Assembly (NCBI RefSeq): GCF_900188225.1
Contig: NZ_FZOC01000012.1
Coordinates: 1-42,191 of the forward strand
Source: Humidesulfovibrio mexicanus
Lineage (GTDB): Bacteria; Desulfobacterota; Desulfovibrionia; Desulfovibrionales; Desulfovibrionaceae
Direction: 5' to 3'
DNA length: 42,191 nucleotides
Shown one piece after another: positions 3,015 through 30,469 of this stretch. Within the stretch, counting starts at the first letter, position 1, and every line of letters starts with the position of its first letter. The notes under the pieces were generated by a model, which saw nothing but the letters and a program-made list of their open reading frames with translations, was not told where the DNA came from and searched no databases. The translations under genes and the position numbers were made by a program.

Positions 3015-3262
3015 TGAATCTCCTTGCTTTTGCGCGCCGGGCAGGATGCCCGACGCAACTTGTGCAAGGATAGCGAGAGGTTTGAAGGTCGGCAAAAAAG
3101 GCATGGTTTTGGCCGGTAAAAGGAAAAGAATAGCGTGTTGACAGGGGTTGAGGGGGGAAACGCGTAGAGCAGCGCAACCCCCGGCCCGCGTTCTCGACTT
3201 GAATGACACGGATTCTCATTTATCGTGCGCGCTCACAGCGACGCTGTCGTGCAGCAACGAAA

Positions 3263-9814: not shown

Positions 9815-10155
9815 GGGCGCGCCCCCGGATGCGTGTTGCCGGTCTGCGCCAGCCTGTGCACCAGCACCTGCTCCGCTTCTGCGGCGCGGATGCAGATGCG
9901 CGCGCCTTCCAGGTCGATTTCAAGGGGATCGCCCAGCGGCGCGCGGCGCACCACGCGCAACGCCGCGCCGGGGCAGAAACCCATGTCCGCAAGGCGCTGG
10001 CCCAGGCGGTCCGCCTCGGGCAGGCGGCACAGCACGCAGTGCACGCCTTCCCCCTGGGCCGCCAGGGGTTCCAGGCCGGGCTGCGCGTCCGCCGCGTCGT
10101 CCTTCGGCTCGGCGGGGTGTGCGCACCGCCCGACAACCGTCTCCAGCATGTTCAT
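9811..10155 (-). CDS. feoA: FeoA-domain protein of the Feo system
   Basis: 114 residues. The ATG at 10155 has AGAGG 6 bases upstream; a GTG at 10161 is also in frame but badly spaced. The C-terminal 75 residues are the SH3-like FeoA fold: LPEADRLGQRLADMGFCPGAALRVVRRAP, then GDPLEIDLEGARICIRAAEA. The first 35 residues are an extra low-similarity stretch. FeoA is a small cytosolic partner thought to modulate the FeoB GTPase. Translationally coupled to feoB by the four-base overlap. Confidence 0.93.
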   Translation of the reverse strand: MNMLETVVGRCAHPAEPKDDAADAQPGLEPLAAQGEGVHCVLCRLPEADRLGQRLADMGFCPGAALRVVRRAPLGDPLEIDLEGARICIRAAEAEQVLVHRLAQTGNTHPGARP

Positions 10156-10201
10156 GGGCACCTCTTTGGGATCAGGCCGTCTTGTGGACAGCTTTGGTGA
10201 G

Positions 10202-10387: not shown

Positions 10388-10726
10388 ATGGGACTGCATA
10401 TACGTTTTGGCGTGGTCGCCGTGGCGGGAACGGCGTTGCTGGGACTGGCCGCCTATGCCGCCCTCAGGTCCGAGAAGCTGCGGCCGGTGCTTGTGGGAGC
10501 GGTGCGCGGCGGGGTGAAGGCTGCGGACTGGCTGGGCGAGAAGGCCTCGACCATGAAGCAGGGCGTTTGCGACATGGTGGCCGAGGCGCGGGCGGACATC
10601 GAGACGCCCAAGGCTGCCAAGCCCGCTGCCAAGTCTAGCGCCAAGCCCGCTGCCAAGTCTAGCGCCAAGCCCGCTGCCAAGTCGGTGGCCAAGGCTTCGG
10701 CCAAGCCCGCTGCTGCGGAAGCCTAG
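10388..10726 (+). CDS. Membrane-anchored Lys/Ala-repeat protein (DUF5132-like)
   Basis: 112 residues, ATG with GGAGGT 8 bases upstream. One membrane helix (about 5-25) is followed by an amphipathic stretch (LRPVLVGAVRGGVKAADWLGE) that resembles the region after the membrane helix in the proteins at 16598 and 17548. Next comes a tail of about 35 residues built from KPAAKSSA units, encoded by 24-base tandem repeats. The tail looks like histone-H1-type basic repeats and would be strongly positive. It is divergent from feoA, and its stop codon overlaps the stop of the convergent P-type ATPase gene. The same kind of Lys/Ala/Pro tail occurs in the MamC-like protein at 17042, suggesting one functional set. 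Function unknown; a role in the putative iron compartment is inference. Confidence 0.75.
   Translation: MGLHIRFGVVAVAGTALLGLAAYAALRSEKLRPVLVGAVRGGVKAADWLGEKASTMKQGVCDMVAEARADIETPKAAKPAAKSSAKPAAKSSAKPAAKSVAKASAKPAAAEA
10619..10690 (+). repeat. 24-bp tandem repeat in coding sequence
   Basis: Two exact copies of a 24-base unit (AAGCCCGCTGCCAAGTCTAG plus CGCC) at 10619-10642 and 10643-10666 and a third diverged copy encode the KPAAKSSA tail. The copy number could vary between strains. Confidence 0.8.
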
Positions 10727-12945
10727 AGACTCTTGTCCGCCCGGTCCGGAAAGCGTTCCGGACCGGCGGCGGGCAGAGGGCGGCCAGAGGCCAGGCCTGC
10801 TGCGGAAAGGATGGCGAAGGTGGTTCCATTGTGCAGGGCCGCCGCGGTCAGCGGGGAGAGCCTCCCCGTCGCCGCCGCCACAAGCAGGGCCGAGTTGACC
10901 GCGACGCCTGTGGCAAAACAGCCGCGCAGCACGCGTCCGGCGCGTTCCGCTGCATCGCGGGCGGTGAGCAGGCCGTGCAGACCGCCGCGCAGCAGCACGA
11001 TGCCGGCCGCATCGCGCGTGAGGGCGGCCACGGTTCCGTCGCCGAGTTCGTCCCCGGCCACGCAGACGCCCACATCTCCAGCCAGCAGGGCCGGAGCGTC
11101 GTTGACGCCGTCGCCCACCACGGCCACCCGCGCGCCGGACTGGCGCAGCGCGCGCACTGCGGCTTCCTTGTCGTCCGGCGTCAGCCCCGCGCGGACCTCG
11201 TCCGGCGCGGCGGGACCGTCAAGCCCGGCCAGGACCGCTTCCGCCGCGTCCTGGTGGTCGCCCGTGAGCAGCAGCACACGGCGCACTCCGCGCCTGCGCA
11301 ACGCCGCAATGACTTCTCCGGCCTCGAGGCGCAGCTCGTCGCGCAGGGCCACCATGCCCGCGGGGCGTCCGTCCACGGCCACATGGACCAGGGTCTTGCC
11401 TTGGGCGCGCAAAGGATGTTCCTGGGAACACAAGGCGTTTTCGCCGCAGGACTGGACCAGAAAGCGCGCGCTGCCAACGGCCACGTCGCGGCGGCTGCCC
11501 GACGCCCCCACCTGGGCGCGCGCGCCCAGGCCCGTGGCGCAGTCCGCGTCGCAGGCGGGCAGAAGCGCCAGTCCCCGCCGTTTCGCCTCCGCCGCGAAGG
11601 CGCGGGCCACGGGATGCGTCCAGCGTTCCTCGGCCGAGGCGGCCAGCCGCACAAGCTCGTTTTCGTCCAGGCCGCTGCCGGGCGCAAGAACGATGTCGGC
11701 CACGGTCATGCGGCCGGTGGTCAGCGTGCCGGTCTTGTCGAAGACGATGGTGTCGGCGCGGGCCAGTTCGTCCAGGGCGCTGCCGCCCTTGACGAGGATG
11801 CCCGCGCGGGCGGCCGTGTGCATGGTGGCCTTCACCACCACCGGGGCCGAGAGCTTGACCGAGCAGGCGTAGTCCACCGTGAGCACGGACAGGGCGCGGC
11901 TGGCGCTGCCCGTGGCGGCATAAATGCCCGCGCCAAAAAGAAGGCTCAAGGGCGCCAGACGGTCGGCCAGACGGTCGCTCAGGCGTTCCGGCCGCGATTT
12001 TTCGCGCAGGCTTTTGTCCATAAGCGAGGCGATGCGCGCGGTGGCGCATTCGGCCCCGGTGCGCACGGCGCGCACGGCCAGGGAGCCATGGGCCACCACT
12101 GCTCCGGCGGGAACCTCGTCGCCGGGAACGGTTTCCACGGGCGCGGATTCGCCGCTGATGACGCCCTTGTCCACCAGCGCCGCGCCGCGCTCCACCACGC
12201 CGTCCACGGCCAGCATCTCTCCGGTTCCCGCCAGCACCAGGTCTCCGGGGCGCACCGATTCCGCGGGAAGCCGGATTTCCTCCGGGCGGCCGTCCGGGGC
12301 GACGCGCTCCACGCGCACGGTTTCCACCGGCGGGGCGAGCAGGGTCCGGAGCAGGGCCCCGGCCTTGTCCTCCGTCGCTTGGCGCAGGTATTCGCCCATC
12401 ACGACCATGGCGCATATGCCCAGGGCCGAGGAGCTGTCGCCCGTGGCCAGGGCGAAGCCCACCGAGGCCATGTCCAGGCTTTTGGCCTTGAGCCCCTGGT
12501 TGGCCAGGGAGTCCGCGCCGCGCAGCAGCACCGGAGCCGCCATGGCCGTGGCGAGCGCCATGCGCGGGGCCGGTGGCAGGAACATCCCCCCCGCCGCCAG
12601 GGCCGAGGCGGCAAGCGCATCGGCCAGGCGGCGCGGCTGGCGCGTCGTCTGCGGCTGGCGCGCGGCGTAGGCCTCGGGCGGAAGGGAGGCCAGGGCGGCG
12701 GCGATGTCCTCGAACACGCCAGGCCGTTCGCCTCCGTCTTCGTCGAACCGGGCCACCAGGCAGCCCCCGGCCGCGTTGACGCGCACCTGGGCCAGCCCGG
12801 CGCGGTGCGCCAGCCAGGCCTCCAGGTAGTCCGTCCGCAGGTCCGGATGCCGGAGGCCCGTCCAGCCCAGGCGCAGGCGTCCCGGACTGCGGTGCAGCAG
12901 TCTGGGCCGTGCGGCCGATGGCGCGAGCGGGGAGGGCGAGCCCAC
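10723..12945 (-). CDS. P1B-type ATPase with HMA_2 domain and YAC motif
   Basis: 740 residues from a GTG at 12945, five bases after the fur stop. The N-terminal 85 residues are an HMA_2-type domain (LLHRSPGRLRLGW) without Cys ligands. The P-type core follows: actuator loop SGES at 264-267, transport-site helix DYACSVKLSAP with C361, phosphorylation Asp D403 in DKTGT, and hinge GDGVNDAP with D612. The usual CPC of copper or zinc pumps is replaced by Y-A-C followed six residues later by Pro, and TGES by SGES, so the metal is not predictable from standard classes. It is the last gene of the ten-gene minus-strand run and meets the plus-strand gene stop to stop. Iron transport into an internal compartment is a hypothesis. 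Confidence 0.9.
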   Translation of the reverse strand: MGSPSPLAPSAARPRLLHRSPGRLRLGWTGLRHPDLRTDYLEAWLAHRAGLAQVRVNAAGGCLVARFDEDGGERPGVFEDIAAALASLPPEAYAARQPQTTRQPRRLADALAASALAAGGMFLPPAPRMALATAMAAPVLLRGADSLANQGLKAKSLDMASVGFALATGDSSSALGICAMVVMGEYLRQATEDKAGALLRTLLAPPVETVRVERVAPDGRPEEIRLPAESVRPGDLVLAGTGEMLAVDGVVERGAALVDKGVISGESAPVETVPGDEVPAGAVVAHGSLAVRAVRTGAECATARIASLMDKSLREKSRPERLSDRLADRLAPLSLLFGAGIYAATGSASRALSVLTVDYACSVKLSAPVVVKATMHTAARAGILVKGGSALDELARADTIVFDKTGTLTTGRMTVADIVLAPGSGLDENELVRLAASAEERWTHPVARAFAAEAKRRGLALLPACDADCATGLGARAQVGASGSRRDVAVGSARFLVQSCGENALCSQEHPLRAQGKTLVHVAVDGRPAGMVALRDELRLEAGEVIAALRRRGVRRVLLLTGDHQDAAEAVLAGLDGPAAPDEVRAGLTPDDKEAAVRALRQSGARVAVVGDGVNDAPALLAGDVGVCVAGDELGDGTVAALTRDAAGIVLLRGGLHGLLTARDAAERAGRVLRGCFATGVAVNSALLVAAATGRLSPLTAAALHNGTTFAILSAAGLASGRPLPAAGPERFPDRADKSL

Positions 12946-12949
12946 GGAG

Positions 12950-13396
12950 CTAGGACCGTCCGCCGGTCTTGCCGCCGCAGCGGGGGCACAGGCCGTAGAG
13001 GATCATGCTGTGCCGGGTGAGCACGAAGCCGTGCTCGGCCGCAAGGTGTTCCTGGCGGGTTTCGATCACCGGGTCGACGATCTCCACCTTTGCCCCGCAG
13101 TCCAGGCAGACGAGATGGTCGTGGTGCTCGTGGCCGTAGCTGTGCTCGTACAGCACCGGGCCGTCGCCCGCGGCAAGGTGGCTGGCGAGGCCGGAGTCCA
13201 CCAGGAGCTTCAAGGTGCGGTACACCGTGGCCTGGCCGATGGCCGGATCCGCGCGGCGCACGCGCGCGCTCAGCTCGTCGCAGGAGAAGTGGCCTTCCGT
13301 GGCCAGAAAGGTCTCCACGATGACGGCCCGCTGGGGCGTCATGTTGAGGCCTTTCCTGCGCAGGTATTCCAGAAAGACTTCATGGGGGGGCTTCAT
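12950..13396 (-). CDS. fur: Fur-family metal-dependent repressor
   Basis: 148 residues. The ATG overlaps the stop of the upstream FeoA-like gene (ATGA) and has GAGGAGG upstream. A winged helix (about 1-80, with TPQRAVIVETF and IGQATVYRTLKLL) precedes the dimerisation domain carrying a HEHHDH cluster (89-94). The structural zinc cysteines are C97, C100, C137 and C140. These features place it in Fur/Zur/PerR. The embedding among iron genes favours iron sensing, but the subclass cannot be fixed by eye. It probably controls this cluster and the Feo genes. Confidence 0.92.
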   Translation of the reverse strand: MKPPHEVFLEYLRRKGLNMTPQRAVIVETFLATEGHFSCDELSARVRRADPAIGQATVYRTLKLLVDSGLASHLAAGDGPVLYEHSYGHEHHDHLVCLDCGAKVEIVDPVIETRQEHLAAEHGFVLTRHSMILYGLCPRCGGKTGGRS

Positions 13397-14157
13397 CGTT
13401 CCTCCTCGGCCGGGCGAAGGTGGGGCTCTTGCTGGACCTGTCCGGCCCAGCGCACGATGACCAGGTCGGCCTGGTCGCGCCGGAGAAAGAGCCGCAGCCC
13501 TCCCCGGCTGGAGAGCACCACGCGATCCCCGGCGGTCATGCGGTAGCTGGAGGCCTTGGACACGTGGTCGAGCACCAGATGGTCGCCCACGGCGATGTCC
13601 AGGGCGGCGATGGCCTTGCGGGCGCGCTCTCCGCCCAGGATGCGCGTGACGACGAACTCCGCCCCGGCCTGGGCGTTGGCGAACTGGCATTCCAATTCGC
13701 CCATGCGGCCCAGGATCTTGGCGGCCATGCCTTCCGGCAGGCGCACGCGGCCCCGGCCCGTCACCCTGGCGACGTATTCCATGGGCGGCAGCGCGCGGAC
13801 CATGGTGATGCGGTCGTCGTCCTTCAGGCCCAGGGCGGCCAGGGTCGCGGCCAGGCTTTCCCCGCCGGTGACGGCCTCGATGTGCCCGGATTCTCCCGGA
13901 GACAGCTCCGTGAGCGGGGCCATGCGGCCATCGTCCAGATGCACCACCACCTTGCCGCCCATGCCGCCGCCCAGAAGCACCTCGCCCTTGGGGCCGCGCA
14001 GGCGCACGGTGTTCAGGGCCACCTCTTCATCCAGACGCGTCACCGCGCTTCCGGGCTGTATGCCCATGCGCCCCAGCTGGATTTCCAGCCGTTCGTCGGC
14101 CACGCGCGTCACCGTGAGGGGCACGCCGCAGGGGGCATGGGCCAGATTCGCTTCCAT
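13393..14157 (-). CDS. Protein with three tandem FeoA-type domains
   Basis: 254 residues with AGGAGCG before the ATG. Three SH3-like FeoA-style units follow one another: about 10-75 (LEIQLGRMGIQPGSAVTRL), 82-150 (LAATLAALGLKDDDRITMV) and 163-240 (RKAIAALDIAVGDHLVLDH). The first two keep the LxxMG(I/L)xxGxxV pattern best. Single FeoA proteins are about 75-80 residues. Tandem versions are unusual and could be cytosolic adaptors for the adjacent P-type ATPases, as FeoA is for FeoB. Nine bases separate it from the preceding ATPase, and its stop overlaps the fur start. No metal-binding residues stand out. Confidence 0.78.
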   Translation of the reverse strand: MEANLAHAPCGVPLTVTRVADERLEIQLGRMGIQPGSAVTRLDEEVALNTVRLRGPKGEVLLGGGMGGKVVVHLDDGRMAPLTELSPGESGHIEAVTGGESLAATLAALGLKDDDRITMVRALPPMEYVARVTGRGRVRLPEGMAAKILGRMGELECQFANAQAGAEFVVTRILGGERARKAIAALDIAVGDHLVLDHVSKASSYRMTAGDRVVLSSRGGLRLFLRRDQADLVIVRWAGQVQQEPHLRPAEEER

Positions 14158-14166
14158 GCATCGCTC

Positions 14167-16314
14167 CTAGGCTTGGGGTTGGGGTTCGCCCGTGTGGGCC
14201 TTCGCGCCGGTTGCGGATCCCCCGGAAAGGGCCGCATAGCCGAGAATGCCCAGTGTGCAGGCGTTGTGCAGAATTGCGGAGGTGACGGGAGAAAGCCTGC
14301 CCGCGGCGGCCAGCAGCATGACGGCGGAGTTCACCCCAACAGCCGTACGGAAGCTGTTGGTGAGCACGCGACGGGTGCGGGCGGCGATGTCCCGGGCGGT
14401 GACCAGGGCCAGGAGGTTGTCCTCCAGCAGCACGACCTGGGCGCTTTCGCGGGCCAGGTCCGCCCCGCCGGGCATACACACCCCAACATCGGCGGTAAGC
14501 AGGGCTGGCGCGTCGTTGACGCCATCACCAGCGAAGGCCAGTTTGCGGCCTTGGCTTTGCAACTCGCGCACGATGTCGGCCTTGTCCTCGGGCTTGAGCT
14601 CCCAGCGGATCTCGTCCACGTCAAAGCCCTTGAGCACGGCCAGGGCGGTTTCCCGGTGGTCGCCGGTGAGCACCACGATGCGCGTGATGCCGCGTGCGCG
14701 CAGCTTTTGCAGGGCCTCGGCCGCTTCCGGACGGGGTTCGTCGCGCAGGGCGATGAGCCCGGCCAGCCTGCCCGCCCTGGCCACGCACAGGAGGCTCTTG
14801 CCCTCGCCGCGCAGCAGCTTTCCGGGCGTGTCCGCGGCGGCGCAGTCCACGCCTTCATCGTCCTCCAGGAAGTGGCGGCTGCCCACAAGCACGCGGTCGC
14901 CGTCCACGAAGGCCGAAACCCCGTGGGCCACGATGAAGTCCACCTGGCTGATGGGCGGCAGCGCAAGGCCCCTTGCCTTGGCCTCGGCCACAACGGCGCG
15001 GGCAACCGGGTGGGAGTAGTGCTCCTCGGCCCCGGCGGCCAGGGCCAGCAGCTCCGGCCCGGTCAGCGCCGGGTCCAGGGGCAGCACGTCGGTGACGCGC
15101 AAATCCCCGCGCGTCAGTGTGCCGGTCTTGTCGAAGACCAGGGTGTCGATGGCGGCCAGGTTGTCCAGGGCCTGCCCGCCCTTCAGCAGCACGCCCCGGT
15201 GCCCGGCGGCGTGCATTCCGCTTTTTACGGCCACGGGCGCGGCCAGCTTGAGGGCGCAGGAGTAGTCCACGGTAAGCACGGCCGAGGCCCGGCGCACATC
15301 GCGCGTGAGCACGAAGAGCCCAAGGCCCAGGGCCAGGGTCACGGGAACCAGGCGGTCGGCCAGCTCGTCGGAGTGCTTCTGCGAGGCGGATTTGCTGCGC
15401 AGGGAGTTCTGCAGAAAGCGGCGGGTGCGGGCCATGCTTGTTTCCGAGCCCACGGTGCTGGCCGCGATCTTGAGGCGTCCGTCCTCCACCAGGGAGCCGG
15501 AGAGCACCTCGGTCCCAAGCTCCGCGTGCACGGGCAGGCTTTCCCCGGTGATGGAGCTGCGGTTCACCGCGGCCTCGCCGTCCACCACCACGCCGTCCAC
15601 GGGGATCAGCTCGCCCGCGCCGCAGATGATCACATCCCCGATGCGCAGGTCCGCGAAGCTGATGCGCTCTTCGTGCGCATCGCGCTCCACCCACACGGAC
15701 TCCACCTGTGGCCGCAGCAGGTCTTTCAGAAGCTGGTCGGACTTCTGCGTGGTCCATTGTTCCAGCCAGTTCCCCAGGCCCAGCATGGCCACGATGGCGC
15801 TGGCGGTGAAGGTGTCGCCGCGCAAGAGCGATGCGCCCACGGCCGCCGCGTCCAGCACCTCCACCTTCACGCCCTCGGAGAGCAGCGTGCCCATTCCCTG
15901 GGCGATGGTGGGCAGCCCCAAGGCCAAGCCCAGGGGCGCGGCCACGCTGCTTGGCAAGAACGGCGTGGCCGCCGCCGCCAGCCCCTGGCCCACCACCGTG
16001 GGCAGGGCCAGGGGCCGCGCGCGGCCATGTCCGGGCAGGAAGGCCTCCCCGGGGATGTCCTCCACCATGGCCAGCACGCGGGCGCGCACCGCTTCGCCCC
16101 CGTCGTGGCGCACCGTCACGCAGGAGGCGGCCGGGTTCACCCGTGCGTTGACCACGCCGGGAACCGCCTCCAACATGCCCTCCAGGAATCCGGTGTCCAG
16201 CGAGGGATCGGACAAGGCCGAGGTGCGCAGCCGCAGGCGTTTCGGGGTCTCGTGGACCACCTGCACCCGCCTGCGCCGCCCCGCGGGGGAGGCTACTGTG
16301 CGGTATCCGGACAT
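14167..16314 (-). CDS. P1B-type ATPase with YSC motif (FezB-like candidate)
   Basis: 715 residues. The ATG at 16314 (MSGYRTVAS) is chosen because it opens just inside the upstream gene behind AAAGGCGG; the frame itself extends to 16509. An HMA_2-like domain lies at about 18-85 (VVHETPKRLRLRTSALSD). The P-type core has ITGES, DYSCALKLAAP with C353, D395 in DKTGT and GDGVNDAP. The transport-site motif is S-C in place of CPC. From memory this fits the P1B-6 class, to which the ferrosome protein FezB belongs, and it is the best FezB candidate of the three ATPases here. The predicted role is ATP-driven metal (probably Fe) movement across the inner or a vesicle membrane. It overlaps the upstream small membrane gene by 22 bases. 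Confidence 0.9.
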   Translation of the reverse strand: MSGYRTVASPAGRRRRVQVVHETPKRLRLRTSALSDPSLDTGFLEGMLEAVPGVVNARVNPAASCVTVRHDGGEAVRARVLAMVEDIPGEAFLPGHGRARPLALPTVVGQGLAAAATPFLPSSVAAPLGLALGLPTIAQGMGTLLSEGVKVEVLDAAAVGASLLRGDTFTASAIVAMLGLGNWLEQWTTQKSDQLLKDLLRPQVESVWVERDAHEERISFADLRIGDVIICGAGELIPVDGVVVDGEAAVNRSSITGESLPVHAELGTEVLSGSLVEDGRLKIAASTVGSETSMARTRRFLQNSLRSKSASQKHSDELADRLVPVTLALGLGLFVLTRDVRRASAVLTVDYSCALKLAAPVAVKSGMHAAGHRGVLLKGGQALDNLAAIDTLVFDKTGTLTRGDLRVTDVLPLDPALTGPELLALAAGAEEHYSHPVARAVVAEAKARGLALPPISQVDFIVAHGVSAFVDGDRVLVGSRHFLEDDEGVDCAAADTPGKLLRGEGKSLLCVARAGRLAGLIALRDEPRPEAAEALQKLRARGITRIVVLTGDHRETALAVLKGFDVDEIRWELKPEDKADIVRELQSQGRKLAFAGDGVNDAPALLTADVGVCMPGGADLARESAQVVLLEDNLLALVTARDIAARTRRVLTNSFRTAVGVNSAVMLLAAAGRLSPVTSAILHNACTLGILGYAALSGGSATGAKAHTGEPQPQA

Positions 16315-16595
16315 TTCGCCGCCTTTTTGCTTGTGTAGAGGCTGTTGTGCCACAGGCTGAAGCCGATAAGCGCCACGCCGCTTGCCAGGTGCAGCGAGCG
16401 CGACAGCCCGCGCCTGCGCACCCCGGTCATGGCCGTGACGGTGAGCACGGCCATGCTGATCGTCATGGCGTCTTTGGCCAGCTTGCGCTGTTGGGCCATG
16501 CTCAGGCACGGTCCGGCCGCCTTGGCGGGAGGCTTGCCGCCCCCCCCGGCTGTGGCGGCGGCCTTGACGACGGCCGACTTTTTGCGCTCGGCCAC
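16293..16595 (-). CDS. Small two-helix membrane protein
   Basis: 100 residues from a GTG at 16595 with GGAGGGC upstream, beginning two bases after the stop of the preceding gene. An Ala/Lys-rich cytosolic head of about 45 residues is followed by two membrane helices (about 44-60 and 70-84). The second reads LHLASGVALIGFSLWHN, with a His at each end that could ligate haem or metal. Its 3' end overlaps the FezB-like ATPase, so the two are probably coupled in translation. I know no family for it with certainty. Helical-hairpin accessory subunits next to P-type ATPases are a reasonable comparison. Confidence 0.72.
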   Translation of the reverse strand: MAERKKSAVVKAAATAGGGGKPPAKAAGPCLSMAQQRKLAKDAMTISMAVLTVTAMTGVRRRGLSRSLHLASGVALIGFSLWHNSLYTSKKAAKCPDTAQ

Positions 16596-16597
16596 GG

Positions 16598-17014
16598 CTA
16601 GCCCTCCCGGCTCAGTTCCGCCTTCACGTCCTCTATCTGTTCCTTGACTTCCTCGATGCCGCCCTGCACCGCGGCCCACACGCGCACCGCGCCGCCCACA
16701 AGCGCCTTCTGCACGGTGGGGTTGGTCAGCACCAGCGCCACGCCCGCGCCGAGGAGCAGGCCTTTCAGGTAGGCGGGCTGCGTGACGTTGAACCAGGAGG
16801 CCAGGCCCGTGCCCGGGGCGTCGGCCTGGACGCGCGAGGCGTCGGCCTGCTGGATGTGCTGCTGCAACGGGTACTGCTGCGCGTACTGGGGCTGCGCAAA
16901 GGCCGGATCGTACTGGGCCTGGGCATAGGCCTGCTGGGCGTACTGGGGCTGTTGGGCGTACTGGTATCCGGCCGCTCCGGAAGGAGGATAGGAACCGTAG
17001 GTCTGGTCGCTCAT
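16598..17014 (-). CDS. Tyr/Gln-rich low-complexity membrane protein
   Basis: 138 residues, strong AAGGAGA site before the ATG. Residues 1-65 are a prion-like low-complexity domain of repeated QPQYAQQ, AYAQAQYD and similar units. Residues 77-112 form a membrane or amphipathic segment (YLKGLLLGAGVALVLTNPTV, then KALVGGAVRVWAAV). The C-terminus is an acidic/basic amphipathic helix (EEVKEQIEDVKAEL). The KGxxxGA...LTNxxVxxAL pattern is shared with the larger protein at 17548-18330 and resembles DUF5132-type sequences. Such domains can self-assemble, so a scaffold at an iron-compartment membrane is a hypothesis. Confidence 0.8.
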   Translation of the reverse strand: MSDQTYGSYPPSGAAGYQYAQQPQYAQQAYAQAQYDPAFAQPQYAQQYPLQQHIQQADASRVQADAPGTGLASWFNVTQPAYLKGLLLGAGVALVLTNPTVQKALVGGAVRVWAAVQGGIEEVKEQIEDVKAELSREG

Positions 17015-17041
17015 GTGGGGTCTCCTTTTGCGCCTGCGGAA

Positions 17042-17545
17042 TTATTCGGTGATGAAGGCTTCAGCCTTGGGCGCGGCCTTGGGCTTGGCGGCCTTGGGCG
17101 CGGCCTTGGGCTTGGCGGCCTTGCGGACGGGCTTCGCCGCAGGCCTGGCGGCCGGATTGGACACGGCGGGAACGGCGGCTTTGGCAGCCGGGGTCGAAGC
17201 GGCCAGGGGCGCCGCAGGGGCCTTGCCGGTTTTCGCCAACACGCCGTCGATGACGGAATCGAGCAGGTACTTGGTGCCGACGGCCACGGTGGCAATGCCC
17301 GCCAGGCCGACCACGCCGCCCACGCGCAGGGCGGCCATGGCGGCCACGCCCACGCCGGAGGCGACGCCAGTCGTTCCGGCCTCGCGCAGGGAGCGCAGGG
17401 CGGCCTGGCTGGCGCTCATCTCGCCATTCTTGACCTTGCGGACGTTGGCCGCTGCCGCGGCGACGCCGCCAACCACGGCGCCGAAGAGCATGGCTCCGGC
17501 GGTTGCGGGGGAAACGGCGCGGGCTGTTTTGTTGTCATGGGACAT
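17042..17545 (-). CDS. MamC/Mms13-like membrane protein with Lys/Ala/Pro tail
   Basis: 167 residues with GAGGAGG before the ATG. Two Gly/Ala-rich membrane helices (about 13-34 and 60-95) are joined by a basic loop ANVRKVKNGEMSASQAAL. The pattern GAVVGGVAAAAANVRKVK, then GLAGIATVAVGTKYLLDS closely follows, from memory, the magnetosome protein MamC (GALVGGAAALAKNVRLLK, later VAAKYAWD), in which the inter-helix loop contacts the mineral. A basic Pro/Ala/Lys tail (about 110-163, KAAKPKAAPKAAKPKAAPKA) is not part of MamC. No other magnetosome genes are visible, so a related role at another iron-rich compartment is more likely than magnetite formation. Confidence in the gene is high, in the homology moderate. 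Confidence 0.78.
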   Translation of the reverse strand: MSHDNKTARAVSPATAGAMLFGAVVGGVAAAAANVRKVKNGEMSASQAALRSLREAGTTGVASGVGVAAMAALRVGGVVGLAGIATVAVGTKYLLDSVIDGVLAKTGKAPAAPLAASTPAAKAAVPAVSNPAARPAAKPVRKAAKPKAAPKAAKPKAAPKAEAFITE

Positions 17546-17547
17546 GG

Positions 17548-18330
17548 CTAGGCCTCCTCGGTTTCGGGCGCGGCCGCGCCGGTTTCGTCAGCGGCCTTCT
17601 GGCCGAACATGGAGCCGACGACGCCCGCGAGGGCGTCCTTCACCGCGCCGTTGGTCAAAAGCAGCACGGCGGCAGCGCCGACGATGGCGCCCTTCCAGAA
17701 GTCCCCGCCGGAGGCCTGCAGGAAGCTCATGATGCGGCCGGGATCGGCGTCGCCCTTGAGCACGTCCTGCACCATGCCGTACATCTGGCCCATGTCCGGG
17801 CCGTTCTGCTGGCCGAACTGGTTCTTGTCGTGCAGCCGGTCCTCGGCGGATTTGGCGTCGTGGCCGCTTGCGCCGGAGGACTGGCCCATGGCGCCGCCCT
17901 GCTGGCCCATGAACTGGCCCTGAGGCTGGGAGCCCGCAAACTGGGGCTGATACTGCGGCTGGCCCATGAAGCCGCCCATGGGCGCGCCGTACTGCGACTG
18001 GCCCATGAAACCCTGCGCGGGCTGTTGCATGGGCTGCTGTGGCTGCTGTCCCATGGCGCCGTACTGGGGCTGGTATTGTGGCTGGCCATAGCCCTGCGGG
18101 GCCTGCATGGGCTGCTGATACGGCTGGCCCATGAAGCCGCCCATGGGCGCGCCGTATTGCGGCTGGCCCATGTACTGGGGCTGGAACTGGTGCTGGGGCT
18201 GCACGCCAGCGGGGCTGGCGGGCTGGCCCATGTACTGCTGCTGGCCCATCTGGCCCATTTGCCCCATTTGTCCCATGGCACCGTCCGCGCCCATGGCCTG
18301 GGCTTCGCCCTTCTGTTCGTCCTTGCTCAT
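17548..18330 (-). CDS. Gln/Gly/Met-rich low-complexity protein with C-terminal membrane segment
   Basis: 260 residues. GGAGGAG precedes the ATG at 18330, although the frame is open far upstream. Residues 1-165 are dominated by Gln, Gly, Met, Pro and Tyr, with GQMGQMGQMGQ and two copies of QYGAPMGGFMGQP. Charged residues are nearly absent until about 165. The last 80 residues contain a short helical part (MVQDVLKGDADPGRIMSFLQ), a membrane segment (FWKGAIVGAAAVLLLTNGAV) and an acidic end. The segment matches the one in the 16598 protein. Met-rich runs could bind soft metals, but a condensate or coat function is equally possible. There is no known family for the N-terminal part. The gene sits inside the ten-gene run between the HMA_2 and MamC-like genes. 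Confidence 0.82.
   Translation of the reverse strand: MSKDEQKGEAQAMGADGAMGQMGQMGQMGQQQYMGQPASPAGVQPQHQFQPQYMGQPQYGAPMGGFMGQPYQQPMQAPQGYGQPQYQPQYGAMGQQPQQPMQQPAQGFMGQSQYGAPMGGFMGQPQYQPQFAGSQPQGQFMGQQGGAMGQSSGASGHDAKSAEDRLHDKNQFGQQNGPDMGQMYGMVQDVLKGDADPGRIMSFLQASGGDFWKGAIVGAAAVLLLTNGAVKDALAGVVGSMFGQKAADETGAAAPETEEA
17959..18172 (-). repeat. Pair of 49-bp direct repeats inside the low-complexity gene
   Basis: 17959-18007 and 18124-18172 differ at only two bases by eye and encode QYGAPMGGFMGQP twice. The near identity at DNA level points to recent duplication of the low-complexity unit. Confidence 0.8.
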
Positions 18331-18371
18331 GTTCTCCTCCTGTGTGCAGTGGTGATTCCGAAATGTTCGCC

Positions 18372-18695
18372 TCAACGCGCGGCCTGGGCCGCCAGCGCCG
18401 TGAACTCCTCCACCAGGGCGGCCAGCCTCGGCCGGTCGCCGGTTGTGAGCGCCTCGTCCAGCTTGTCCGGGGGGATGACCACGGGGTCGTATTCGATGAC
18501 CACCGAGCGGGCTGCGGCGTTCAGCCTCATGCCCCGAAAGCCGGGCACGCCGCGGCCGTCGCCGCTGGCGGCCAAAAGTGCCTTGGCCTCGGGCCGGGCC
18601 AGCAGGGCCAGGCTGAAACGGATGCGGATGCGGCCGGGCACGTGGTGGGCCACGGTCAGGCAGTCGCGCAGGGCGATGATGTCGCCGATGTTCAT
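18372..18695 (-). CDS. Free-standing HMA_2-domain protein
   Basis: 107 residues. AAGGAG precedes the ATG, which overlaps the stop of the CPC-type ATPase (ATGA). The whole protein is one HMA_2-like ferredoxin-type fold with VAHHVPGRIRIRFSLALLA and GVPGFRGMRLNAAARSVVIEYDP. It has no CxxC, so it is not a classical copper chaperone. The same domain heads each of the three ATPases here, so a soluble partner that docks on them is likely. Ferrosome operons, as I recall, include a small HMA-domain protein. Confidence 0.85.
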   Translation of the reverse strand: MNIGDIIALRDCLTVAHHVPGRIRIRFSLALLARPEAKALLAASGDGRGVPGFRGMRLNAAARSVVIEYDPVVIPPDKLDEALTTGDRPRLAALVEEFTALAAQAAR

Positions 18696-20953
18696 GCGTT
18701 CTCCTTGTTGGCTTCGCTTTGCGGCGGCAGGGCAGGGGGCGTGTGCTGGAAGCGCAGCAGGCGCGCGGAATTGGCCAGCACGCCGGCTGTGTGGATGATG
18801 TGCAGCATTCCGGCCGCCACGGGCGAAAGCAGCCCCAGGGCCCCCATGGCCGCGCCGCCGATGTTGGTGCTGGTGGCAAGCATGAAGTTCTGCCGCGCCA
18901 CGGCCAGGGTCTGGCGCGAAAGCGCCTGCACGTAGTTGAGGCCCGTGAGGTCGTCGCCCACGAGCGCGATGTCCGCCGCTTCGATGGCGGCCTCGCTGCC
19001 GCCAACGCCCACGGCCACGCCCACGTCGGCCTCTGCGAGGGCCAGGGCGTCGTTGATGCCGTCGCCCACCATGAGTACGCGCGCGCCGTTCGCCCGCATG
19101 TCGCGCACGATGGCCGCCTTGTCCTCGGGCAGCAGGCCCGCGTGCACGCCGTCGATGCCGAGCCGCGCGGCCAGGGCCTGGGCCGCTCCGGCCTCGTCAC
19201 CGGTGACGATCTCCACCCTGGCGGCGCCGCCTTTGCGCAGGCCGTGGAGCACGGCTTCGCTTTCGGGGCGGATGGTGTTGTCGAAGGCGAAGAGGCCGAT
19301 GACCTCACCATCCCTGGCCATGGTCAGCACGGTGAGGCCACGGGCGCGCCAGCTTTGGGCCCTGGCCGCGCTTTGGCCCAGGTTCACGCCATGGCGTTCC
19401 ATGAGCCTGCGGTTGCCCAGCAGCAGTTCGTTCTCGCCCACCTCGGCCCGCATTCCCATGCCCATGAAGTACTGGCACACGTGGTGCGGCGTGGCGGAAA
19501 CCCCGCGCCTTTCGGCCTCGGCCTTCACGGCCTGGGCCAGAGGATGGTGGTTGTGCGCCTCCACCGAGACGGCCAGATGCAGCAGTTCGTCCTCGTCCAC
19601 CCCGGCCAGGGGGAGAATGCGACAGAGCTCGGGCTGCATGGTGGTCAGGGTGCCGGTCTTGTCGAAGCACAGGGTGTCGAGTTTGCCGACTTCTTCCAGG
19701 TAGCGGCCGCCCTTGATGAGGATGCCGCGCGAGGCGGCGGCGCTCATGGCGGCGCTGACGGCGGTGCTGGCCGCCAGCACCGTGGCGCAGGGGCAGGCCA
19801 TGACCAGCATCACCGTGAAGGCCCGCCACAGGCTGCCGGTCAACAGCAGGGTGCCGCCCGTGGCCCAGAAGCCGATGCGCACCATGCGTTGGGCCAGCTG
19901 GTCGGCCACGCCCTCTATGGGCGCGCGGTTTTCGATGGCGTCCTCCACCTGACGGAGCACCCGGGCCAGGTAGGTGCGGTCGCCCACCTCGTGGGCGCGC
20001 ACGTTGACCACGCCCTCGCGCACGAAGGTTCCCGCAAGCACCCGGTCGCCTGCGGCCTTGAGCACGCTGTCGGCCCGGCCGGTGATGGGCGACTCGTCCA
20101 GCAGGGCCTGCCCGTGGACGATGACCCCGTCCACGCAGACCTTTTCGCCCGTGTGCAGCACCACCACGTCGCCGGGGACCAGGGAGTCCACCTCGGCCTC
20201 CACCTCCACCCCCTCCACCAGGATGAAGGTGTGGTGCGCGCTTTGCCGCAGAATGCCCGCTATGGAGCGCCGGGAGCGTTCCGTTACCCAGGCCGAGAGC
20301 AGGTCCGCGCCGGACTGCACCCAGAGGATTTCCATGGCGGTGAGGGCCTCTCCTGCGGCCACGGCGGCCACCACGCCCGCGCCCAGGAAACTTTCCAGGG
20401 TGACCTTGCGGCGGCGTAACTGCCGGGCGGCCTTGCGCAAAAGGGGCAGGCTCGCGGCCAGGGCGGCCAGGCCCAGCGGGCTGAACAGGCTGGCGCTTGT
20501 GGCCACGCCAAGCACGGTCGAGCGGAAGAACACCACGCCCATTACCGCGCTGCTGGCCACAAAGCGCCGCAGCGCGGGGCGCACGGGGTCGCAGCCTTTT
20601 TTCGTGGCGGCGCAGGCGCAGGCCGGGGTGTCGCAGGCCCCGCAGGATGCCCCCGCAGCGGCCGGAGCGCACAGGGGGGTGCGGCACAGGGGCTGGCCGG
20701 GCAGGGGGCGGGTCTGGCGCGGCAGGCAGGCCAGGGCCTCGGCCAGCAGCGCCTGCGCCGGAAGCAGCTCGGCATCGTGCAGGACCACGAGGCTGCCGCA
20801 GGCCAGGTTCAGGCGCAGGCCGTGCATTCCGGCCAGGCCGTTCAGCCGTCCGGAAAGCAGCTCGCCCAGGCCGGGATTGCGTTTGAGGGCCGGGCCGCCC
20901 AAACGGGTGCGACCGGGCAGCGTGTGCAGGATGGTAAGCGGATGTTTTGCCAT
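18692..20953 (-). CDS. P1B-type ATPase with CPC motif and Cys-rich linker
   Basis: 753 residues, first gene of the ten-gene run. The N-terminus is an HMA_2 domain (ILHTLPGRTRLGG, about 8-75). A linker at about 102-131 holds nine Cys (LCRTPLCAP, CGACDTPACAC, KKGC). Membrane helices follow, then the actuator loop with ITGR in place of TGES, transport-site ACPCATVLAAS with C387 and C389, D431 in FDKTGT and GDGINDALAL. The CPC site is typical of soft-metal pumps, while the ITGR change at the Glu used for dephosphorylation in P-type ATPases is odd and could slow or abolish turnover. The start lacks a strong ribosome site. It lies 98 bases behind siaC on the same strand, so it may be co-transcribed with it. 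Confidence 0.9.
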   Translation of the reverse strand: MAKHPLTILHTLPGRTRLGGPALKRNPGLGELLSGRLNGLAGMHGLRLNLACGSLVVLHDAELLPAQALLAEALACLPRQTRPLPGQPLCRTPLCAPAAAGASCGACDTPACACAATKKGCDPVRPALRRFVASSAVMGVVFFRSTVLGVATSASLFSPLGLAALAASLPLLRKAARQLRRRKVTLESFLGAGVVAAVAAGEALTAMEILWVQSGADLLSAWVTERSRRSIAGILRQSAHHTFILVEGVEVEAEVDSLVPGDVVVLHTGEKVCVDGVIVHGQALLDESPITGRADSVLKAAGDRVLAGTFVREGVVNVRAHEVGDRTYLARVLRQVEDAIENRAPIEGVADQLAQRMVRIGFWATGGTLLLTGSLWRAFTVMLVMACPCATVLAASTAVSAAMSAAASRGILIKGGRYLEEVGKLDTLCFDKTGTLTTMQPELCRILPLAGVDEDELLHLAVSVEAHNHHPLAQAVKAEAERRGVSATPHHVCQYFMGMGMRAEVGENELLLGNRRLMERHGVNLGQSAARAQSWRARGLTVLTMARDGEVIGLFAFDNTIRPESEAVLHGLRKGGAARVEIVTGDEAGAAQALAARLGIDGVHAGLLPEDKAAIVRDMRANGARVLMVGDGINDALALAEADVGVAVGVGGSEAAIEAADIALVGDDLTGLNYVQALSRQTLAVARQNFMLATSTNIGGAAMGALGLLSPVAAGMLHIIHTAGVLANSARLLRFQHTPPALPPQSEANKENA

Positions 20954-21051: not shown

Positions 21052-21432
21052 TCATAGGGGAACCAGGTTGAAGCGCAGCCCGCTCAGGTCCTGCATGAAT
21101 TCCTCGCCGCATTCCTGGGCCATCTCGTTTTGGGCATGGTAGCGCCAGTTCACCTCGACGGACCGGCCATTGGCGGCTTCCTGGTCCAGCATGTCGAAGA
21201 GGTCCATGAAGGTCTTGGAGGTGGAGCTGTTGAAGTAGCCGACCTCCATGTCCAGGGTCAGGCGCTGCGCCCGCTGCTCCCGGAGGTACTCCTCCAGCCA
21301 GGCCAGCGCAGGGCCGTAAAAGCGCTGGCAGTTTTCCGGGTACGACTCGCCGTGGATGGCAAGGCGTCCGGTATCGGGGTCGAAATCGATGCGTGGCGAG
21401 GACTTCGTGCCCTCTATGGTGAGGCGTGTCAT
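21052..21432 (-). CDS. siaC: SiaC-family regulatory phosphoprotein (DUF1987)
   Basis: 126 residues. SiaC-type proteins are switch partners: phosphorylated by a SiaB kinase, dephosphorylated by a SiaA phosphatase, and in the free form stimulating a diguanylate cyclase. The family signatures are SSPRIDFDPDTGRLAIHGES and PENCQRFYGPALAWLEEYL. The probable phosphorylation site is in GYFNSSTSKTF at about S69-T71. It is the last gene of a four-gene run and lies 15 bases behind siaB. Confidence 0.9.
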   Translation of the reverse strand: MTRLTIEGTKSSPRIDFDPDTGRLAIHGESYPENCQRFYGPALAWLEEYLREQRAQRLTLDMEVGYFNSSTSKTFMDLFDMLDQEAANGRSVEVNWRYHAQNEMAQECGEEFMQDLSGLRFNLVPL

Positions 21433-21447: not shown

Positions 21448-21993
21448 CTAGGCCACGACCTTCATGGCGAAGAAGGACGTGTCCGTGTCCAGTGGGGTGA
21501 TACGAAAATCGAGGGGCCGTGCGGATTGCCTCGCCATTTCGATGAGGCCCAGGCCCGCCCCGAGGGAGCCTTGCGGGGCTTGCGCCCGGCGCATGGCGCG
21601 GTAGTGGTCCTTCAGGGCCGGTCCGCTCAGCCCCCGGATGTGCTCGATGCGCCGGGCCAGTTCGGCGCATTCGCCGCTGCGCACGCGGTTGCCGCAAGCC
21701 ACGAAGAACCGGCCGTCCTCCTCGCGCCCGACCACCACCTGACCGTGGGCCAGGGCGTCCCGGTCCCGACCGCTGGCGCGATCGGCGGAGTAGCGCACGA
21801 TGTTCTGCATCTGCTCCACCAGGATGGCGAAGACCTTCTGCATCATGGCCATGCCTGCGTCCTCGGCGCGCATCTTTTCGCGCATCAGCTCGGCCATGCC
21901 CTCCACCACGGGCTGGGACACGGGGCCGTTGAAGTAGAGGATGACGCCGCTTTTGCGCAGGTTTTCGTAGTAGTCGAACAATTCGCCCGTCAT
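21448..21993 (-). CDS. siaB: SiaB-family protein kinase
   Basis: 181 residues, overlapping the siaA stop by four bases. It has a GHKL-like ATPase fold with an N-box around EQMQNIVRYSA (about 60-70) and a Gly-rich loop GSLGAGLGLIEMA (about 143-155). Members phosphorylate the SiaC partner on Ser/Thr. There is no sensor domain, so it acts as a cytosolic anti-partner kinase. The immediate neighbours are the phosphatase and the substrate, which makes the pathway assignment firm. Confidence 0.9.
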   Translation of the reverse strand: MTGELFDYYENLRKSGVILYFNGPVSQPVVEGMAELMREKMRAEDAGMAMMQKVFAILVEQMQNIVRYSADRASGRDRDALAHGQVVVGREEDGRFFVACGNRVRSGECAELARRIEHIRGLSGPALKDHYRAMRRAQAPQGSLGAGLGLIEMARQSARPLDFRITPLDTDTSFFAMKVVA

Positions 21994-23279
21994 TGCGCGC
22001 TCCTTGCGTGGATTTCAAAGGCCAGGGCGGTGATGTCGTCGCGCTGCGTCTCGGCCCCGCGGTATGCGTCGAACCGGTCCAGAAGGGTTTGTCCCAGGTC
22101 CGCAAGCGGGGTGCGCGCGCCTTCGGCCAAAAGGTCCATGAGCCTTCTGCGCCCGAAGGGAAGGCGGTCCGCGCCGCCGGGTTGGTCCACAAGCCCATCG
22201 GTGGTCATGCAGTAGCGGGCGTTCGGCTCAAGGGGCATGTCCACGTCATTGAAGCGGGCTTCCCGCGGGGTGCGCACATAGCCTGCGCCGCGCGGCGTGC
22301 CCTTCACCACGCGCGTTGCTCCCCCGGTGGCGATGTAGAGCGCGCCCCTGGCCCCGGCGAAGGTCAGCCGTCCGGCGGCAAGGTCCACGCGGCACAGGGA
22401 ACAGTCCATGCCGTCGTCGGACAGGGCGTCGGCTCCGGTCTGCCCAAGGGCTTCCTTGATGAGGCGGTTGACCCGCGAGAGCAGCGCTCCGGGGCTTGCC
22501 TCCGCGCCGGATTCCTCCTCTGCGCGGGCCGCGCGATCGAAGAGCGCGTGCACGATGAGGGTCAAGAAGGCTCCGGGGACGCCGTGGCCCGTGCAGTCTA
22601 TGACCGCAAGCCAGAAGCCGCCGGGAAAGGAGCGGGCCCAGCAGGCGTCGCCGCCAACGGCCCCCAACTGCCGCAGGGCAAGAACGTGCGTGGCTCCGCC
22701 AGGGCCAGCGGCCTCTTCCAGCACGGCGGCGATGTCCGCCTGGCCGGGCAGAAAGGCGCGCTGGATCTGGCTTGCGTATTCGATGCTTTCCCCTATCTGG
22801 CGCTGGGCGTCAGCCAATTCCGCCACCGCCCCGGCCAGGCGTTCCTCGCGATTCTTGAGAGCGTAGCCCATCCAATGCAGATTGCGCTTGAGGCGCTGGA
22901 AGTCGTGTTCTTCGCCGCGTTCCGGGGGCAGGTCGTCCAGGGCGAAGTCTCCCTGCTTGAGGCGCTGGCACTGCCGGTTCAGGCTGCGGATGCTGCGCAG
23001 GGCCAGCACGTGGCTGGAAAATGCGGAAAGCGGGGCGAGCAGGATGAGCATGGCCGCCAGGAACAGCACCAGGGCCGAGGTCGCGGCTTCGCGCCCGGAC
23101 CCGTGAAGGGCGAGCAGGAAGCCGAGCGGCGCCGCCACTCCGAGCAGCAGCAGCGTGGCCGTGACCTTGCGGCGCACAGGCATCTCGGCCAGGGCGTCCA
23201 GAAGGCGGTCGGCCGGGGTGGGCCGGGCGCGCATGTCCATGGCCGGAGACGCTTGATCCATGGGGCGGGACGGCTTCAT
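21990..23279 (-). CDS. siaA: SiaA-like membrane PP2C/SpoIIE phosphatase
   Basis: 429 residues. The ATG at 23279 overlaps the stop of the cyclase gene and has GGGAG upstream; the frame is open beyond it. Two membrane helices (about 37-60 and 66-92) with almost no periplasmic loop are followed by a HAMP-like linker with coiled coil (about 95-170). The SpoIIE-type phosphatase domain (about 175-428) carries LGAVGGDACWA, DCTGHGVPGAFLT, TTDGLVDQP and RDDITALAFE, which supply the Asp residues for Mn/Mg. It should dephosphorylate SiaC. In Pseudomonas SiaA a large periplasmic sensor precedes the HAMP. Here it is missing, so the input must come through the membrane or the cyclase. Confidence 0.9.
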   Translation of the reverse strand: MKPSRPMDQASPAMDMRARPTPADRLLDALAEMPVRRKVTATLLLLGVAAPLGFLLALHGSGREAATSALVLFLAAMLILLAPLSAFSSHVLALRSIRSLNRQCQRLKQGDFALDDLPPERGEEHDFQRLKRNLHWMGYALKNREERLAGAVAELADAQRQIGESIEYASQIQRAFLPGQADIAAVLEEAAGPGGATHVLALRQLGAVGGDACWARSFPGGFWLAVIDCTGHGVPGAFLTLIVHALFDRAARAEEESGAEASPGALLSRVNRLIKEALGQTGADALSDDGMDCSLCRVDLAAGRLTFAGARGALYIATGGATRVVKGTPRGAGYVRTPREARFNDVDMPLEPNARYCMTTDGLVDQPGGADRLPFGRRRLMDLLAEGARTPLADLGQTLLDRFDAYRGAETQRDDITALAFEIHARSAQ

Positions 23280-24420: not shown

Positions 24421-24450
24421 GTGTATAATTGAAAATGATGTTCAAAGTCA
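24421..24450 (-). promoter_or_regulatory. Sigma-70-type promoter of the Sia/cyclase operon
   Basis: On the minus strand TTGACT (24450-24445) and TATACA (24426-24421) are separated by 18 bases, about 30 bases before the GTG start of the cyclase. The surrounding sequence is markedly AT-rich compared with its neighbours. Confidence 0.6.
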
Positions 24451-24610
24451 ATGATGATTTTTGTGTTGAATGCCGCGGAACTGGCCCGGCGAGGCCGGTC
24501 TGAAGCGAGTGCTGAAGCCGGTTTCTGCGCATTCGGCAGGAGAGCGGATCGTTTTGGGGTATTTTTGCTCCTGCTTGGGGCAGAGTTCGGTTTTCGGTTG
24601 GGGTAAGTCT

Positions 24611-24625
24611 TGATATTGAAATTCG
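24611..24625 (+). promoter_or_regulatory. Candidate Fur-type operator before exbB
   Basis: TGATATTGAAATTCG partly matches a 7-1-7 Fur box, better on its left half, and shares ATTGAAATTC with the palindrome in front of feoA. It lies about 55 bases before the exbB start. Suggestive only. Confidence 0.35.
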
Positions 24626-24678
24626 TCCTCATAAAGGATAGGCGGGGGCCGGAAGGCCCTTTCCTCAAGGAGCAGCTC

Positions 24679-25413: not shown

Positions 25414-25414
25414 C

Positions 25415-25822: not shown

Positions 25823-25829
25823 TACGCCC

Positions 25830-29779: not shown

Positions 29780-29856
29780 GTAGAGTATTTAGTGCACATG
29801 GCTAGTCGCCACTCTAGTCCAACGGGTTATGCTTAAGAAAAACGTGGAGCTCTCTT

Positions 29857-30411: not shown

Positions 30412-30469
30412 GGGTACAGAGGCAGCATGCACCTGACACGCCGCCGCCGTTGCGACACCTTCCATTTGC

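Follow-up and report, generated by a model that had tools for sequence, protein, structure and literature searches.

The window examined here, a stretch of 42,191 nucleotides from Humidesulfovibrio mexicanus, probably a sulfate reducer (contig C12 of a 3.52 Mb genome), holds a block of ten minus-strand open reading frames (ORFs) that run from position 20953 to 10723 and overlap or are separated by short gaps (Table 1). All ten genes proposed in an earlier sequence-only reading of this DNA are present. As that reading had claimed, their products include three P-type ATPases (P0001, P0007 and P0010, each with Pfam E1-E2_ATPase and Hydrolase matches), a protein with three FeoA stretches (P0008) and a Fur-family regulator (P0009, Pfam FUR), and the next genes on this strand are feoA and feoB. 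The HMA_2 heads assigned to the ATPases, and the free HMA_2 protein P0002, can be recognised in every case but stay below the Pfam cut-off of 30 bits in a protein scan (P0001, 29.0; P0002, 19.9; P0007, 16.1; P0010, 12.9 bits); in a genome search only the P0001 copy exceeded it, with 32.1 bits. The low-complexity membrane protein P0003 (LC1), the MamC-like P0004, the second low-complexity protein P0005 (LC2) and the two-helix P0006 had no match in Pfam at E ≤ 1.

A tree of 100 ATPases, built with a quick method, drawn from its midpoint and supported only by the Shimodaira–Hasegawa-like approximate likelihood ratio test (SH-aLRT), united P0007 with P0010 (clade of 40 rows, support 100). This clade joins nine pumps of short fez-type (ferrosome) operons (49 rows, support 99), and the next to join is FezB of Desulfovibrio magneticus, together with pumps from Firmicutes and others (62 rows, support 98). 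Escherichia coli CopA and ZntA lie outside, as do two other pumps of the window’s own genome. The D. magneticus proteins were taken from a genome, G267, whose identity as strain RS-1 we infer. Both P0007 and P0010 carry the HN motif in transmembrane helix 6 (TM6), which is found in 64 of 66 FezB-type and related pumps, a count that leaves aside CopA, ZntA, the two pumps of the window’s genome and the pump of locus L127; one of those two genomic pumps and that of L127 have HN as well. On this tree, the reading of all three pumps of the block as copper or zinc exporters was rejected, and the outcome that the sequence-only reading had named as fatal to itself, all three ATPases in copper or zinc clades with no fez relatives, did not arise.

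FezC of D. magneticus is an HMA_2 half fused to a two-helix half. A profile of the P0006 family, built without this FezC, matches it with 36 bits (4e-10), and P0002 is the counterpart both of its N-terminal half and of the small HMA_2 genes in short fez-type operons; these matches suggest that FezC is here divided between P0002 and P0006. His69, Gly73 and His83 of P0006 are invariant in all 18 aligned sequences. FezC of Desulfurispirillum indicum is reported to bind heme b, and a homodimer model has been described (PMC10979944, PMC11334425, in the parts drawn on here). The two-helix protein seen in the earlier reading can thus be placed more precisely: with the profile match and the two constant histidines, P0006 is a stand-alone FezC-type heme module, for which heme binding is predicted.

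A comparison of the P0005 set with a FezA set, seven of whose 14 members match DUF6110, gave a probability of 96.7% (E = 3.8e-10), whereas the controls, the P0005 and FezA sets against the MamC-like set, reached 4.3% and 3.5%. On these controls a glycine-rich-helix artefact was rejected as the source of the likeness; the profiles concerned are small. The product of the short convergent gene at the 3′ end of the block also aligned with the FezA set, so that the window holds two FezA-type one-helix proteins. P0003 consists of a variable Q/G/P/A-rich arm and a constant membrane anchor, which starts with FWKG in 21 of 24 family rows. P0004 matches the NCBIfam MamC model (NF038051) with 42.6 bits (E = 5.8e-11), and 17 of 20 MamC-like proteins, 13 from the window’s family and seven from short fez-type loci, match the same model (best E = 3.1e-15). 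The earlier description of P0004 as MamC-like therefore stands as homology; as a true MamC it was rejected, the equivalog cut-off of this model being 100. In a separate set, made up of 20 MamC-like proteins from the family, the tail has a net charge of +5 or more in 11.

The small proteins were also sought, with profiles built solely from loci of the window’s family, in short fez-type loci on plasmids of Cereibacter, Azospirillum, Arcobacter and Vibrio and in genomes of Rhodobacter capsulatus, Rhodomicrobium, Pseudothauera and a Hahella metagenome-assembled genome (MAG). The best 80 loci listed from the genome scan included no R. palustris, no S. putrefaciens and no Desulfovibrio with the operon. 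The Vibrio locus scored 70 bits for HMA_2, 47 for the MamC-like protein and 58 for LC2, and its LC1-like protein matched weakly (20 bits to LC1, 26 to LC2). Corresponding values were 53 (MamC-like), 92 (LC2) and 36 (LC1) in Hahella, and 20, 60 and 20 in R. capsulatus. MamC-like and LC2 proteins were found together in the Vibrio, Hahella, R. capsulatus, Rhodomicrobium, Arcobacter, Sulfurospirillum and Pseudothauera short loci; LC1 was found in Hahella, Cereibacter, R. capsulatus and Rhodomicrobium, with a weaker match in Vibrio. The HMA_2 gene precedes fezB in Vibrio and comes after it in Cereibacter and R. capsulatus. Five members of the block (HMA_2, LC1, MamC-like, LC2 and FezB) match the presumed fez loci of a putative six-gene type, LC1 in part only, and by these profile matches LC1 and MamC-like proteins are also components of short fez-type operons in other phyla. 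In three fez-type loci (L091, L096 and L111) a gene of 227–248 residues occupies about the place of LC1; that of L091 is annotated as DUF2202.

The block is widely kept in the window’s family. When P0007 was searched against 288 genomes of Desulfovibrionaceae, matches at E ≤ 1e-100 were found in 184, and a P0007-type pump of at least 52% identity in 44, from 14 genera (counted from the table of matches). Loci were fetched for 31 of these 44 genomes and scored with profiles in six frames, since our custom gene caller was incomplete in L069, L073, L078, L176 and L184, among others. Conservation was counted over 30 loci, including the window, that are unbroken by contig ends and come from 29 genomes and 13 genera; operons split over contigs (L076/L077 and L079/L080) and a lone second copy (L187, genome G074) were set aside, and L178/L188 and L179/L182 are near-duplicate pairs. 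Genes of the P0001, P0003, P0004, P0005, P0006 and P0007 types each occur in all 30 loci, and those of the P0002 and P0008 types each in 28. In 19 loci all eight core genes occur and have the same order as in the window; in the others a gene is displaced, repeated or missing. Because the arrangement is kept in these 30 loci, we do not regard it as a product of chance. Beyond the family, the complete block was found in three genomes from two other families of the phylum (L213, L214 and L216), and the part from LC1 to the triple FeoA in a Desulfarculaceae MAG whose contig starts at LC1 (L100). Six loci (L067, L068, L178, L185, L188 and L194) have a second, convergent mini-cluster of HMA_2, MamC-like and FezA/LC2-like genes beside the P0010-type pump.

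We conclude that the ten-gene locus is probably an enlarged fez operon, because P0007 and P0010 lie in the FezB clade, P0006 matches FezC, P0005 matches FezA, and 17 of the 20 MamC-like proteins match MamC. A comparison with FezA–C, which the sequence-only reading had suggested, pairs P0005 with FezA and P0006 (with P0002) with FezC by profile, and P0007 and P0010 with FezB by the tree. As read from the tree and profiles, the fez set of the window consists of relatives of FezA (P0005 and the convergent gene product), FezB (P0007 and P0010) and FezC (P0002 and P0006), and the additions beyond known fez parts are P0001, the triple FeoA and, in some loci, P0010 and Fur. The earlier proposal of a related but much larger ferrosome-like locus with three ATPases is supported by tree and profiles as regards the enlarged locus; the third ATPase, P0001, is not a FezB, and the suggested protein coat found no support from the sequence.

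P0001, the ATPase at the head of the block, falls in a separate clade (27 rows, support 100) characterised by CPC in TM4. This clade lies loosely (support 84) beside a mycobacterial CPC pump, which at 36% identity is also the closest to P0001 among twelve pumps compared. It is neither of the FezB (P1B-6) type, since the TM6 motif reads HI in all 27 members and HN in none, nor grouped with E. coli CopA or ZntA. The TGE motif, surprisingly, is changed in all 27 sequences (TGR in 18, SGR in 7, TGN in 2) and kept as TGE or SGE in all 71 other ATPases of the alignment; the hinge proline of GDGxNDxP is lost in 27 of 27 as well. Among 13 distant relatives from other families, ORFs scoring above 540 bits, 12 lack the glutamate (TGR, SGR, NGR, NGV, TGQ or TGC), and one of these has DKTGA. 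We treated the thirteenth and weakest match (L218, 5636–7966), which keeps TGE and stands beside a TGR pump, as a different pump.

Dephosphorylation is ascribed to the TGE motif in the part of PMC8880997 drawn on here. Judged by its motifs, P0001 has probably retained metal binding and phosphorylation, and the usual dephosphorylation is probably not possible, so that it would be a metal-dependent partner or sensor for its neighbours; because the residue that pumps normally need has been lost in the relatives examined, it may sense or regulate and not pump. A rival explanation, somewhat doubtful though quite conceivable, is that P0001 is an ordinary active pump whose phosphoenzyme is hydrolysed through another residue, the locus then being a ferrosome operon plus a Cu- or Zn-type pump. 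The DKTGT phosphorylation site and CPC, each kept in 27 of 27 sequences, would suit such a pump. So would the ratios of nonsynonymous to synonymous substitution (dN/dS) of close pairs, 0.04, 0.07 and 0.17, against 0.04, 0.07 and 0.15 for P0007; this similarity indicates that P0001 is constrained. A model of P0001 predicted from 13 sequences (mean predicted local distance difference test score 77.5, predicted template-modelling score 0.63) also matches CopA and ZntA structures, the best match being PDB code 4bbj (E = 1.8e-41, 666 alignment columns, template-modelling score 0.54, r.m.s.d. 8.3). Against an active pump stand the loss of the glutamate in the family and in 12 of the 13 distant ORFs, set against its retention in the 71 other pumps aligned, the role ascribed to TGE, and the changes in the HN motif and hinge proline. 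We tentatively propose, as an idea somewhat more likely to be wrong than right, that P0001 represents a class of P-type ATPases that have lost the TGE glutamate but keep the phosphorylation aspartate and CPC site under strong purifying selection. Gated by metal and locked by phosphorylation, such proteins would serve true pumps as sensors or regulatory subunits; here these would be the pumps of iron-store vesicles, and in other members of the phylum different pumps of the HMA_2 type.

In the family, P0001 was found in 46 genomes, including all 44 with a P0007-type pump; the two further genomes have a completeness of 82% and 84%. Wherever this family has the P0007-type pump (44 of 44 genomes), it thus also has a conserved pump-like protein that lacks the catalytic glutamate of TGE. 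A plasmid search with P0001 returned 18 records, none covering 80% of the protein. Outside the family, P0001-type genes were located in 12 loci, of which three have the block in full. A further one, L218, has the block with another pump in place of that of the P0007 type, and no FeoA protein was matched in it. L215 and L217, truncated by the ends of their contigs, retain one core gene each and were counted neither with nor without the core. The other six have no core in the stretch fetched. In four of these six (L219, L221, L222 and L224) TGE-less P0001-type proteins stand beside pumps of another type, about 1000 residues long, with TGE and, by eye, HMA_2-like heads, and beside small helix proteins; three of them (L219, L221 and L222) also contain a gene that by eye is MetK-like. 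These four loci represent a second kind of HMA_2/pump cluster.

Table 1. Genes and sites of the ferrosome-like block and its surroundings in the window
Feature	Position	Strand	Description
P0001 / ATP_A	18692..20953	-	HMA_2-headed P1B-like ATPase; CPC in TM4, DKTGT kept, TGE changed to TGR, TM6 HN changed to HI
P0002	18372..18695	-	free HMA_2-like protein, 107 residues
P0003 / LC1	17548..18330	-	Q/G/M-rich; conserved C-terminal membrane anchor starting FWKG
P0004	17042..17545	-	MamC-family protein; Lys/Ala/Pro-rich tail
P0005 / LC2	16598..17014	-	Q/Y/A-rich N terminus; FezA-like (YtxH/DUF6110-like) membrane helix; amphipathic tail
P0006	16293..16595	-	two-helix protein, related to FezC C-terminal heme module; His69, His83
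P0007 / ATP_B	14167..16314	-	FezB-clade (P1B-6-type) ATPase; TM4 SCA, TM6 HN
P0008	13393..14157	-	three FeoA domains
P0009	12950..13396	-	Fur-family regulator
P0010 / ATP_C	10723..12945	-	second FezB-clade ATPase, paralogue of P0007
Convergent gene	10388..10726	+	FezA-like one-helix protein, 112 residues, Lys/Ala-rich tail; start picked by eye
FeoA	9811..10161	-	same strand as the ten-gene block and 3′ of it
FeoB	7217..9814	-	same strand, after feoA
SiaC-family protein	21052..21432	-	regulatory phosphoprotein; PF09345, E = 4e-43
SiaB-like protein	21448..21993	-	DUF6272
SiaA-like protein	21990..23261	-	PP2C/SpoIIE phosphatase
Diguanylate cyclase	23279..24391	-	PAS-GGDEF; start by eye, GTG with AAAGGA ribosome site; mechanical call to 24451
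Fur box	24429..24445	.	TTGAAAATGATGTTCAA; one mismatch to WTGAAAATNATTTTCAW
ExbB-ExbD-TonB genes	24610..26516	+	divergent, sharing the Fur-box region

The same-strand run does not begin at P0001. A GGDEF gene, a SpoIIE phosphatase gene, a DUF6272 gene and siaC lead up to it across a gap of 98 bases, in which no terminator-like site was listed; two of these genes we take to be siaA and siaB. The ten genes thus lie where the sequence-only reading had placed them, and its upstream border at 20953 is probably too short: the unit may begin at the Sia/GGDEF genes, under the Fur box. The SiaB/SiaC pair accompanies the block in six of the 30 loci, including the window (five genera), on the other strand in L185. 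The Fur box at 24.4 kb, compared with the delta-proteobacterial consensus WTGAAAATNATTTTCAW (given in the part of PMC545781 drawn on here), is the only site of the window within three mismatches (0.05 expected). Where the start of the P0001-type gene had been called (24 of 30 loci), Fur-box-like sites of at least 13 of 16 occur upstream of this gene in 17, against 1.2 expected (these loci being related and not independent), and upstream of the P0007-type gene in none of 26 (0.18 expected). From this distribution, iron control of the operon is likely for the family, and in the window it probably operates from the site at 24.4 kb. With Sia genes and a PAS-GGDEF cyclase directly upstream, a link between cyclic di-GMP and iron storage is also possible.

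Elsewhere, the window encodes a two-partner secretion pair on the plus strand (32812–40854), with a ShlB/FhaC-type transporter and a filamentous haemagglutinin-type exoprotein of 2082 residues, and, on the minus strand, an autotransporter beta-domain protein of 1137 residues (3519–6932) and an RHS/YD-repeat fragment adjoining a stretch of lower GC content (1842–3104). A MatE transporter, a TetR regulator and a serine resolvase lie in a region of lower GC content (0.54–0.60) that is perhaps mobile (28382–32097).

An enlarged fez operon would work as follows. At low iron, Fur would release the operon and the TonB genes for expression, FeoAB would bring Fe(II) into the cell, and P0007 (and P0010) would pump it into a vesicle. 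Dimers of P0006 may pass electrons across the vesicle membrane through histidine-bound heme and so set the balance of Fe(II) and Fe(III), a proposed redox step that the stand-alone heme module makes directly testable. The one-helix low-complexity scaffolds P0003 and P0005 and the MamC-like protein would gather the pumps and shape membrane or mineral, and the Lys-rich tails of the scaffold and MamC-like proteins could perhaps bind phosphate. FeoA is thought to act on FeoB; by analogy, P0008 may gate the pumps, and P0001 would serve as the metal-dependent partner or sensor.

Several observations weigh against this interpretation. P0010 and Fur occur in only 12 and four of the 30 loci, and P0001 is patchy within the window’s own genus (three of 15 genomes). 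Moreover, the fez core is missing from the fetched stretch in six of the 12 P0001-type loci outside the family, so that P0001, having relatives without the core, is not ferrosome-specific. Matches of the P0006 family to DUF4405 are weak (ten of 18 at E ≤ 0.1, best 0.0016), with none for P0006 itself. In the profile searches LC1 was unmatched in the Arcobacter, Azospirillum and Pseudothauera loci, and MamC was near noise in Cereibacter and without a match in Azospirillum. The short loci are themselves called fez operons from the FezB clade and their architecture, and since the fez locus of D. magneticus comprises three genes with a single FezB-type pump, data from that species say nothing about LC1 or MamC. 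No Fur box stands directly upstream of P0001 in the window (10 of 16), and we know of no iron body in any carrier of the enlarged operon.

Alternatively, the genes could encode a plasma-membrane platform on which several pumps export metal, comparable to the mycobacterial PacL/CtpC effluxosomes, in which one-helix low-complexity scaffolds cluster P1B6-type exporters and no organelle is formed. In the accounts drawn on here, PacL1, a protein with a membrane helix and Glu/Ala repeats, gathers CtpC into foci in the membrane (PMC9374683), and DUF6110 (FezA-type) proteins, which are likened to PacL scaffolds, have their genes alongside those of P1B6 pumps (PMC9374683, PMC13043812). P0001 shares CPC with CtpC and has its nearest compared relative, albeit on a weak branch, in a mycobacterial pump; three pumps in one operon would also suit a platform for several metals. 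We nevertheless consider this unlikely. The Fur box, feoAB, the FeoA domains and Fur point to iron scarcity and not to metal excess, two of the three pumps belong to the FezB clade, DUF1490, the PacL scaffold family, was not listed for the LC2 or FezA sets at E ≤ 0.1, and the parts of the two PacL accounts used here name neither a FezC-type heme module nor a MamC-like protein.

A mineral-forming compartment nearer to a magnetosome, in which crystals would be under the control of the MamC-like protein, would agree with the matches to the MamC model and appears very improbable. Three magnetochrome-domain matches were obtained in G267 and none in seven other genomes, including that of the window, or in 14 controls; a magnetosome island was rejected on this result. 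MamC-like proteins also occur in short fez-type operons of Rhodobacter and Vibrio, which to our knowledge are not magnetotactic. A copper or zinc resistance operon, to which the P1B-ATPase folds and the CPC of P0001 might point, is barely credible, as the tree places P0007 and P0010 away from CopA and ZntA, PF00403 (HMA) is below the Pfam cut-off in all three pumps, and iron genes and a Fur box surround the operon.

Read as an enlarged fez operon, the locus would connect ferrosomes, PacL/CtpC efflux platforms and the magnetosome protein MamC by sequence, and such operons would be common within one family, with cultured strains probably among the carriers. Literature searches on degenerate TGE motifs, on MamC with ferrosomes, on Desulfovibrio P-type ATPases with MamC and FeoA, and on P1B6 with DUF6110 gave no title on this combination among the matches listed, a result that does not imply its absence from the literature. 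Compared with the fezABC locus of D. magneticus, relatives of all three products are present here, FezA-like proteins, FezB-clade pumps and a FezC-type heme module, although FezC is a single protein there and two in the window. In the 18 kb D. magneticus locus LC1, the MamC-like protein, the triple FeoA, Fur and P0001 were unmatched, and P0001 was also absent among the matches in the G267 genome. Firmicutes-type fez clusters, of which that of C. difficile is an example, likewise have a FezA-type protein followed by a FezB-clade pump (Coprococcus, Butyribacter); they differ in being short, and LC1 and the MamC-like protein were unmatched in the loci fetched.

S. putrefaciens reportedly has a six-gene fez operon. 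In R. palustris CGA009, ferrosomes are described as arising from six fez genes (RPA2333-2338; PMC12016538, in the part drawn on here). Presumed relatives of this operon type in Vibrio, Cereibacter, R. capsulatus, Hahella and others share LC2 and FezB with the window, mostly a MamC-like protein, in some cases LC1, and HMA_2 before or after the pump; unlike the window, the loci fetched lack P0001, P0010, the triple FeoA and Fur. The PacL/CtpC effluxosomes resemble the block in that a one-helix scaffold of low complexity accompanies a CPC-type, P1B6-like pump (PMC9374683, in the part drawn on here), but respond to zinc excess and form plasma-membrane foci, and the one mycobacterial CPC pump that was aligned keeps TGE. 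MamC, finally, is homologous to P0004 over residues 14–100 of the latter, which differs in its score, far below the equivalog cut-off, its Lys/Ala-rich tail and its place in an operon of the iron-store type.

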